Of a DNA stretch of 64,000 nucleotides, positions 33,265 through 37,620 are shown piece by piece. The notes under the pieces are model-generated. The model was not told the origin of the DNA, made no database searches, and was given only the letters and a program-made list of their open reading frames with translations. A program made the position numbers and the translations under genes. The stretch comes from Hyaloraphidium curvatum (lineage: Eukaryota; Monoblepharomycota; Hyaloraphidiomycetes; Hyaloraphidiales; Hyaloraphidiaceae). Position 1 is the first letter of the stretch. Each line of letters begins with the position of its first letter. The stretch covers positions 62,001 to 126,000 of the forward strand of contig JAIVFI010000021.1 in the NCBI GenBank assembly GCA_025558095.1. Reading direction: 5' to 3'.

Positions 33265-35040
33265 TTAGGCGTTGAAGTCGATGATCTGCGGGAGGGCGCG
33301 TCCGTCAGGATCGGAAGGTCAACGGCAAGCGATCAACCCACGGCGCGGCCGGCAACCTGGAAGCTGCGGAGAAGACCCGGGGATCAGCGGACGCCCCAAC
33401 CAGAGGCACGATGCGGACCCACTTCTTGAGCTTGTTGGCGGCGGTGGCAAAGTCCTTGAAGGGGAACACCTGGTAAATGGGCTTGACCAGGCCGCGGGCG
33501 GCGAACTGGAGGGCCTCGTCGGTCTCGGACATGGAGCCGACGAGCGAGCCCTTGATGGTGAGGCGCTTCATGCTGGAGGCCGGGCGGATGGATCAGTCGG
33601 GTGCGCGGGAACCAGCTGCGGGGCAGACACGCACCACATGTACTGGTTGATCGCGGCGAAAAGTCGCGAGAAAGGAACACGGGCGACGTAGCGTGGAAGC
33701 AATGAGTCAGATCCTGCCCAAACCGTGAAGCGATCCGGCAACGCACCATGGGGTCGGCACCGGCGATGGCGGTTCCGGCGGTGGGCAGGCCGACGCAGAC
33801 CATGGTGCCGGCGGTCCTCAGGAAGAACGGAGCCGGGTCGTAGGCGCTCTTGGTGCCGCCCGTGACGATGACGGCGTGCGCACCGCCGCCGGTGATCTCG
33901 TGGACCTTGGCGGGGATGTCCTTGACCTCCTTGAAGTCGATGAAGGCCACGGCGCCGAGCTTCTTGCAGAGCTCCTCCTTGTCCTTGCCGCTGTCGATGG
34001 CGACGACCTGGAGGCCCATGGCCACGGCGTACTGATCCGCGATCGAATCAGGAAAAGAACAAGATCGATCGAAGCACGGCAACGAACCTGGACGGCCATG
34101 TGGCCGACACCGCCACCAGCGCCGGGGATCACAACCCAGTCGCCTGCCTAAATAAAAGAAAAGGTGATGAGCGCAGACCGGAGAGCGGGGGCGGAGGCGC
34201 CTACCTTGGTGTTGGACTTCTTGAGCGCGGCCCAGGTGGTGGCGCCGGAGCACATGATGGGGCCGGCAATCAGGTCAGACACGCCCTCGGGGATGCGGGT
34301 CGTGTAGCGGGCGGGCGAGAGGACGTATTGGGCGTAGCTGCCGTTGACCGTCACGCCGGTGAGGACCTCCTTGGCGCAGTGGGTCTCGAGGCCGTTGCGG
34401 CACTCGTAGCACTCGTGGCAGACGTCCATGACGGGCTTGATGCCGGCGCGGTCACCGACTTTCCAGCCCTGGACCTCGGGGCCGACGGCGACGACGACAC
34501 CGGCGCCCTCGTGGCCGGTGCTATTCGAAGTCAGCGACTGATCGGCTTCCGACGACAGGACGAAGCCGACTCACCAGTCGCAGCCCATGGGCATGCCCCA
34601 GTCGCCGAGCATGACGTGGATGCTTTCGGGAGAGGAGTGTCAGGAGGGAGACGAGGTACGTGAAAGGCGCAATCCTCACTCTGTCGAGAGAAAGTGATCA
34701 GTTCCACGATCGGAGTCCGTTTCCAGGAATCGACTTACCGCTGTGGCAAAGACCTGAAGGCGTAGCGGGGAAGGAATGGAGAGGGGAACGGGTGGAGACA
34801 TTTGTTGGCGTTCCCGGTCGGGGAACAACGGCGGGACCGACCGGTGGCGTTGAGCCTCAGAAGCAGTTCGCCCTTCCCGGGAGTAGGCACCGGGTAGTCC
34901 TCCTTCGCCTCGAGCACGAAGTTCTCGCCCTTGACGGTGCAGACGCCGGCGCGTCCGACCTTGGGGATGGGCTGGTCAGCGGGGGGGGCTGGGCCGCGCG
35001 AACGGGACACGGTCAGCACGCAGGCGGCTAAAGAAGTCAT
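33265..35040 (-). CDS. Zinc-dependent alcohol dehydrogenase with multiple microexons
   Basis: Recognisable MDR/ADH parts: GRAGVCTVKGENFVLEAKED, LNATG + LCHS (15-nt exon 34739-34753, catalytic-Zn Cys), GDWGMPMGCD, TGHEGAGVVVAVGPEVQGWK (Zn His), structural-Zn cysteines in DVCHECYECRNGLETHC, NAD-binding VIPGAGGGVGHMAVQYAVAM, MKRLTIKGSLVGSM and C-terminal FQVAGRAIIDFNA. At least nine introns are present, with 8-nt (33635-33642) and about 22-nt exons near the 3' end. It resembles yeast-type ADH1 (NAD, ethanol/acetaldehyde). The join between the LCHS microexon and IHVMLGDWG does not close in phase with canonical sites, so one exon boundary is unresolved or the locus is damaged. Confidence 0.82.
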
Positions 35041-35380: not shown

Positions 35381-37620
35381 TCAGAGCTTCGCAGGAGGCA
35401 GGTTGATGCCCAGCTTGCCCTCCTTCAGAAGTGCAACGACCTCGGTCTTGAGATCCTTCTGCACAAGGAGACAAACATCGGCACAAGCAAAGGCGGAATC
35501 AACGCCATCCTTACCTTCAAGACCTTCTGAGTAGCGTTCTTGGGCAAGCTCTCCGTCTTGAAATGGACGTAGGTCGGCACCTTGAACTGGGCAATCCGCG
35601 ACTGGCAGTGGCGGATCACAGCTTCCGCGTCGGCCTTGTATCCGTCCTTCATCTTGACGATCGCGGCCACCTCCTCGCCCAAGCGCGGGTGCGGAACCCC
35701 GACGACCGCAGCTTCCTCTACTCCCGGCATCAGCATGATCGCATCCTCGACTTCAACGGAGTAAATCTGTGGGAAACGGATGAGAGCGAGCAGAAGCGGT
35801 TCACCGGCACCACTCAAATTCTCTCCAGCTCTGATGAGCACGTCTTTTGCGCGGTCCAGCTGGCGAACGAAGCCGTCAGAATCCATGGTGCCGAGGTCCC
35901 CGGTCCTCAGCCAGCCCGTCGGCGTGATCGTCTCGGCCGTCGCCTTCGGGTTCTTGTAGTACTCCTTCATGACGTTCACGCCGCGTACCCAGATCTCCCC
36001 GATCGTGCCGAGGGGCACGGAGATTGGGGGCTCGGCGGTGAGGGCGCCGGGCGGCAGGTCCGTGGGGGCGATGACGACTTCGTTCACGGGGGAGGCCAAT
36101 CCGATCGAGTCTTGCCGGATGAAGTAATCCTCAGCTGGCGGATAAGATCGTAGTCAGAAACTGATGGTGCGAATAGCACAGGGTGCGTCCTAGCCGGCCG
36201 CGGCGCGCCTCTGCCCACCCTCCCGCCGGAGTTGAAGACGCACATCGTCGCGGACGCCGACAAGCGCGCAACAACTTACCAGCGTTCATTATAACAAAAC
36301 CATTTGTCTCCGTCAATCCGTATCCGTTCAGGCCCTTGTACCCGTCTCCGACCCAGCGCTTGTCGACCTTTGGCAGCAGCCGCTCGACGGTCTCGACCAG
36401 CTCTTTGGGCGCCGGCGCCCCGCCGCCTCCAACCGACTCGATCCGCGCCAGCAGCTCCGGGTTGTTGAGGAGCTTCGGGTGCGACAGCAGAGTCAAGCTT
36501 TGGTAAGGCACGCCGCCGAGCCCCGTGAGCTTGTGCTTGACGGCAATGTCGAGCACGACCCCGGCGTCCCATCGGCTCATGATGATCACAAGAGATCCGG
36601 CCAGCGTGTTCGGAATCAGATTGCAATGGAGCCCCCCGACGTGGAACATGGGCGTGCCGATCAGCGAGGCGCGCTGCTCCGTCACGGGGGCGGGCGGCGC
36701 CTCGCCGCGGCGGAGGAAGCCGCGGAGCGGGAGGGCCGCCATCGTGAAGATGTTGGTCAGGGCTCCCCGATGGGTTTGAACGGCTCCCTTTGGGAAGCCA
36801 GTAGTGCCTGAAGTGAACAGGATCACGGCTTCATCGTCTTCGGCGATGCTGGCCTCCGGCGGGTCGGCAGAGGGACCGGGTTGGGCCACCAGGTCGCCGT
36901 ACGGGGCAACCTTGGCCCCAAACCCGTGCTTGGGGATGCTGCCGGTGACAAAGACCTTTTCCAGCTTCCCCTTGAAGAGCGCGTCCAGGTAGCTGCCGCT
37001 GCCGTCCTCCTGCTTCGTCAGCAGCCGTTCGAGCCGTTCGTCGTCGGCGAGGAGGATCTTGACGTCCGCCAGATCGATGCAGTAGTGCAGCTCCCGTGCC
37101 AGAAGCCAGGAATTCACGGCGACGAGCACAGCTCCGATCGACGTGGCTGTCGGCGCGAGACAGTCGGTAACTCCTTGACGAACAGACCGCGCAAGGACGT
37201 ACCGGCCCAGAACCAGAGCGCCCACTCGATGCTGTTCTTGCTGCACACGGCGACCTTGTCGCCCTTCTTGACGCCGAGCCCCTTCAGCGCCCACATGAGC
37301 CGGACGACCTCTTCTTTGGCCTGGGCGTAGGTCACGGTCCGGAGCGACCCCCTCGCCGCTTCCTCGTCGAACGCCCGGGGATTCCCGCTGTACAACTTCA
37401 GGTACGCCCGGTCCGCGAACGCCGCCGTGGCACCAAAGAACACGGCGCGCATCGTCGGCGGCAGGTTCTTGTAGGCCTTCAGCGGGGGGCAGAGCGAATC
37501 GCGGAAGGGCAGTTTGACCTGGTGCGTCTCCAGGGGGCTGCCGGGCGCAGTGATGATCGCGTTGGCCTGCGCCGGGGTGACTTTCGGCTGGAAGGGCGGG
37601 AGGCTCGCGTTCGCAGCCAT
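35381..37620 (-). CDS. Peroxisomal acyl-CoA synthetase / AMP-dependent ligase
   Basis: Four exons (37203-37620, 36280-37146, 35515-36134, 35381-35458), 1983 nt, 660 aa. The enzyme activates a carboxylic acid to acyl-AMP and then acyl-CoA. Motifs: P-loop ILFTSGTTGFPKGAVQTH, GYGLTETNG, hinge WLRTGDLGTMDSDGFV and the catalytic Lys in LPKNATQKVLK. The last exon ends PPAKL; AKL is an accepted PTS1, so peroxisomal import is likely. The protein resembles fungal 4-coumarate-CoA-ligase-like or medium-chain synthetases; substrate unknown. Between RAGEN and IYSVEVEDAIM there is a 51-nt in-frame insert (35767-35817) that looks like an intron with a damaged donor (see findings). Confidence 0.92.

Follow-up and report, generated by a model that had tools for sequence, protein, structure and literature searches.

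A probable G-to-T change at an intron donor in an acyl-CoA synthetase gene of Hyaloraphidium curvatum and possible retention of the intron as an insert in the hinge loop

An acyl-CoA synthetase gene of the fungus Hyaloraphidium curvatum carries a segment of 51 nt, beginning TTGAGT and ending CCCACAG, that lies exactly between RAGEN and IYSVEVED in the hinge region of the enzyme. This segment almost certainly originated as an intron in which the first donor base (+1) changed from G to T. The most likely outcome, to which we assign a probability of about one half, is that the changed intron stays in the mRNA and adds 17 residues to the A8 hinge loop. The gene lies in a window of 64,000 nt (contig JAIVFI010000021.1, positions 62,001 to 126,000), and positions below are those of the window unless a contig handle is given. 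The features are as follows.

37620-35381, minus strand: acyl-CoA synthetase gene (AMP-binding and AMP-binding_C), from the spliced open reading frame and Pfam
37620-37203, 37146-36280, 36134-35818, 35766-35515 and 35458-35381, minus strand: the five exons of this gene
37202-37147, minus strand: intron 1, GT-AG, 56 nt, phase 1
36279-36135, minus strand: intron 2, GT-AG, 145 nt, phase 1
35817-35767, minus strand: intron 3, TT-AG, 51 nt, phase 0, giving the insert LSGAGEPLLLALIRFPQ if retained
35514-35459, minus strand: intron 4, GT-AG, 56 nt, phase 0
35817, minus strand: donor +1 of intron 3, T on the coding strand (A on the plus strand)
35780-35784, minus strand: branch-point-like motif CTCAT, with A 14 nt before the end of the intron
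35803-35841, minus strand: candidate cryptic donors, from donor scoring

Excision of the 51-nt segment together with the three GT-AG introns yields a 643-codon open frame for an acyl-CoA synthetase, a gene model that was obtained twice, the second time with a purpose-written spliced aligner. The 643-residue spliced product matches PF00501 (1.8e-60) and PF13193 (9.7e-18) in Pfam. It has both domains, the motifs of the A3, A8 and A10 regions and the position of the catalytic lysine in common with ANL acyl-CoA synthetases of the fatty-acyl or feruloyl-CoA synthetase type, such as 8wev and 3r44 (FadD13). It differs from these enzymes in the context of the catalytic Lys, TQK rather than TGK, and, if unspliced, in an A8 motif split by 17 residues; the motif is unbroken only when the 51 nt are spliced out. 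Among 40 positions that are near-invariant in paralogs and bacterial homologues, 39 are kept. The sole exception is G614Q, directly before the catalytic Lys, at a position that is variable elsewhere (Arg in two paralogs, Phe in a third). A long-standing pseudogene is ruled out by this conservation. In the genome assembly (31.9 Mb in 55 contigs) the locus matches only itself, with no further copy or allele found. A family 1 chitin synthase match in this genome points to a fungus.

Read on the minus strand from 35817 to 35767, the segment is TTGAGTGGTGCCGGTGAACCGCTTCTGCTCGCTCTCATCCGTTTCCCACAG; it is in phase 0, has no stop codon and translates to LSGAGEPLLLALIRFPQ. A sequence-only reading had described it as an apparent intron with a mutated donor, and its coordinates, its two ends, its length, its divisibility by three and its open frame all proved exact on re-reading. 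The same reading held that acyl-CoA synthetases run through RAGEN and IYSVEVED without a gap, which the homologues bear out. The 17 residues are absent from the five best PDB matches, those displayed as alignments, from 13 bacterial homologues and from each of the 15 fungal paralogs that were aligned here; in the PDB and bacterial sequences the gap is exactly 17 residues long, and homologues match without gaps on either side of it. Thus no relative with the same residues appeared among the PDB, bacterial and paralog sequences compared. The insert has a GC3 of 0.53, against 0.84 for the gene (binomial p of about 0.003, worked by hand), which suggests that it has not been coding for long. Its codon composition is not adapted to coding, although such adaptation is to be expected of an old insert only.

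A reference set for the signals within the segment came from the acyl-CoA synthetase paralogs in this genome: 74 GT-AG introns of high confidence, collected by spliced alignment with no consensus bonus besides a preference for GT/GC and AG. These reference introns have a GTRNGT-like donor and, with few exceptions, lengths of 47-70 nt (smallest 47), a range that includes the 51 nt of the segment. Scored without +1, the donor reaches 9.2 bits (92nd percentile of the 74 introns), a level matched at 1.0e-4 of window positions; restoring G at +1 would bring it to 10.8 bits, whereas the median is 8.0. The acceptor, a YAG with a pyrimidine-rich tract, scores 9.3 bits (86th percentile; 1.9e-4 of window positions match). 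A CTNAH motif stands 10-25 nt from the acceptor in 62 of the 74 introns and in 10% of random 26-mers, and CTCAT itself is the motif of eight reference introns. In length, branch-point-like motif, acceptor and donor positions +2 to +6, the segment is therefore like the short U2-type GT-AG introns of fungi, and it is unlike them in its first donor base, which is T and not G. With TT in place of the GT or GC of U2-type donors but the consensus from +2 to +6 intact, it falls into the "other" non-canonical class of Frey and Pucker 2020 (PMC7072748).

Two variants of this origin were considered and set aside. A [D1,2] stwintron is ruled out, since no AG precedes TGAGT (the preceding bases are GAGAATT). 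Loss of a single base would imply an original donor GTTGAG, with an A at +5 that occurs in about 2% of introns, and substitution therefore fits better than deletion.

The introns of related genes place the segment in a familiar context. The genome holds several dozen paralogous acyl-CoA synthetase genes or gene parts, of which the best-scoring (L017, C24:28116-28757) is 46% identical to the window gene and has a 59-nt GT-AG intron exactly between GEN and IY, in phase 0 (gaac/GTGGGT...TTGCAG/atct). At least six further paralogs have introns no more than two codons from the site: between GE and N at C35:548250 and C33:464790 (phase 0) and in a paralog on C18, and within two codons in paralogs on C22, C38, C45 and C4. 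An intron at this place is thus normal for the acyl-CoA synthetase family. GEN/IY is the one intron position that the window gene and L017 have in common, and a single shared position fits shared ancestry and repeated insertion into a favoured site equally well. The claim of an intron with its first base changed from G to T was accordingly upheld by the splice-signal scores and by the paralog intron of identical position and phase. The divisibility by three and the open frame, which had been taken as a hint of an insert, proved weak evidence: 16 of the 74 ordinary introns share this property, as do 9.2% of fungal GT-AG introns (PMC7072748). The open frame is also what a genuine coding insertion of 17 residues without an intron origin would show. 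Such an insertion is very improbable, however, given the intron-like edges, interior and GC3 of the segment, the paralog intron at the same site and the want of any homologue with the insert.

Several paralogs show peculiarities of their own. In many of them (L017, L019, L021, L026, L028, L032, L033 and L039) the A8 hinge (xxIRGGEN) is encoded by a micro-exon (about 18-28 nt) with a short intron on either side; the exact intron positions vary by a few nucleotides from one paralog to the next. At the corresponding intron, L032 (C18:607154-607520) has an odd donor, GGCGAG followed by GGTAACGG, where use of the GT would add one base and shift the frame, so that either the donor is of GG-AG type or one base has been inserted in the G run. 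Two probable GC-AG introns, with donors GCATGC and GCACGT, occur in L021/L027 (C4:845469, C4:844423), and a GCACGT donor at the corresponding site is also found in the L032 paralog. In L013, an acyl-CoA synthetase paralog on C8 near 635186-635340, a two-nucleotide exon "GA" is predicted between introns of 92 and 58 nt and is needed to keep the hinge sequence AKDM.

The proposed course of events begins with an ordinary spliceosomal intron whose GTGAGT became TTGAGT by a change of the first donor base. At TTGAGT, pairing with U1 and the first step of splicing would then fail, or nearly fail, and the whole 51 nt would remain in the mRNA, the usual result in a fungus with short introns. As the segment is open and a multiple of three, the predicted product would keep its full length and gain 17 residues, probably disordered, in the A8 hinge loop. 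Known donor +1 mutations with intron retention likewise combine a single +1 substitution, a short intron and no good frame-keeping donor. Here, in contrast to the usual case, the open, in-frame segment means that no premature stop is expected, and retention is a prediction. Retention appears the likeliest outcome because there is no good GT donor nearby, the U1 genes are standard and no TT-AG intron occurs among about 95 introns. A literature search for G-to-T donors returned no match.

Donor scoring bears on the doubtful prospect that a cryptic donor has taken over. The GT at 35841 (offset -24), which is in frame, scores 3.3 bits and so lies within the range of real donors, at their 8th percentile, but its use would remove VLIRAGEN. 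The GT donors at 35813 (+4), 35810 (+7) and 35804 (+13) do not keep the frame; their scores are -1.0, -0.4 and 1.1 bits, at the bottom of the donor range, and their use would give frameshifted, short-lived transcripts. Every one of these donors is weak, use of those downstream would yield introns of 38-47 nt, no larger than the smallest seen (47), and the A8 motif is destroyed in every outcome. Pairing of the +4, +7 and +13 donors with a downstream GAAG acceptor was rejected, as the conserved IYSVE strand would be lost. A GC donor at +9, in frame and adding LSG, was set aside as weak, being absent from the above-zero scores. No frame-restoring GT donor that spares the hinge was found around the segment, and the family sequence is restored only by exact TT-AG excision.

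Such excision, as a rare TT-AG intron aided by GAGT at +3 to +6, the branch-point-like motif and the strong acceptor, is unlikely, though less so than use of a cryptic donor. The preserved signals and the intact coding sequence are what working splicing would leave, and dinucleotides of the "other" class make up 0.257% of annotated introns in the fungi surveyed, beside 98.7% GT-AG, 1.0% GC-AG and 0.019% AT-AC (PMC7072748). Against it, about 95 introns of high confidence, drawn from two gene families of this genome, are GT-AG with a few GC-AG candidates and include no TT donor. A search for an adapted U1 snRNA likewise found none: the 5' end, ATACTTACCTTG, is the standard one in both of the U1 genes found. 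Both of the chemical steps in splicing involve the donor +1 base, where T is poorly tolerated. That the fungus splices a TT-AG intron efficiently with a standard U1 is improbable; if it did, a near-perfect donor context would be able to rescue T at +1. The two U1 snRNA genes, L122 (C2:67851-68014) and L123 (C2:73103-73266), are near-identical, lie about 5 kb apart and score below the Rfam gathering threshold.

A stronger competitor to retention, with perhaps one chance in four, is that the T is a wrongly assembled base or comes from a collapsed or minor allele; the genome or its other allele would then have G on the coding strand at 35817, and splicing would be normal. A lone substitution that turns a near-perfect donor into TT while all other signals stay intact is what such an error would look like, and the assembly offers no second copy of the locus for comparison. 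On the other side, at most two weak frameshift candidates occur in about 9,700 aligned codons from 19 paralogs, so that gross accuracy is good, and polished long-read assemblies contain fewer substitution errors than indels. The branch-point-like motif, the acceptor and the rest of the donor show no decay, and the enzyme is otherwise intact; together these suggest that the change is recent, that the intron is still spliced or that the base is in error. The intact motif and acceptor are equally expected of a sequencing error or of a still-spliced TT-AG intron, and a stop-free length divisible by three is common among normal introns. If the intron is retained, the change would be recent, as a long-standing inactive product is unlikely in an enzyme with 39 of 40 near-invariant residues.

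The earlier suggestion that a translated insert could alter activity can be narrowed: activity is likely to be lost, not just modulated, because the insert lies within the A8 loop. It is placed after the glycine of the A8 motif (RAGEN), a residue that contacts the beta-alanine part of the CoA pantetheine in the thioester-forming state (PMC4667280). When the C-terminal part was modelled by AlphaFold with the insert included, pLDDT fell below 50 at residues 106-123, which comprise most of the insert, and confidence was good over much of the remaining C-terminal domain; Foldseek matches this model to ANL enzymes such as 8wev. Since the A8 glycine contacts pantetheine in ANL enzymes, a product with the insert would most likely be unable to complete the CoA step. 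A disordered loop of 17 residues in this position should prevent or impair the transfer of the acyl group to CoA, and adenylation by the insert-bearing enzyme might survive.

Another splicing peculiarity is found nearby, in an alcohol dehydrogenase gene that starts near 34971 on the minus strand. Here a one-nucleotide exon, "A" at 34680, is predicted; it would provide the second base of the codon for the conserved Asp of LCHSDIH. The introns that flank it, 34738-34681 (58 nt, acceptor 9.6 bits) and 34679-34623 (57 nt), are both complete. The closest paralog (C6:132109-133042) reads LCHSDVH and has a single 56-nt intron. The alternative to such an exon is one intron of 116 nt combined with a one-base deletion. 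This predicted exon may be more interesting than the TT donor.

The case has no bearing on a large open question. Should the change prove not to be real, it would still serve as a caution for annotation, as gene finders limited to GT/GC donors would report a 660-residue enzyme. If real, it would be a clean natural example of a lost donor in a single-copy gene whose enzyme is otherwise intact, and it could help to show whether T at donor +1 can be tolerated at all and how a 17-residue insert in the A8 loop affects the two half-reactions of the enzyme.
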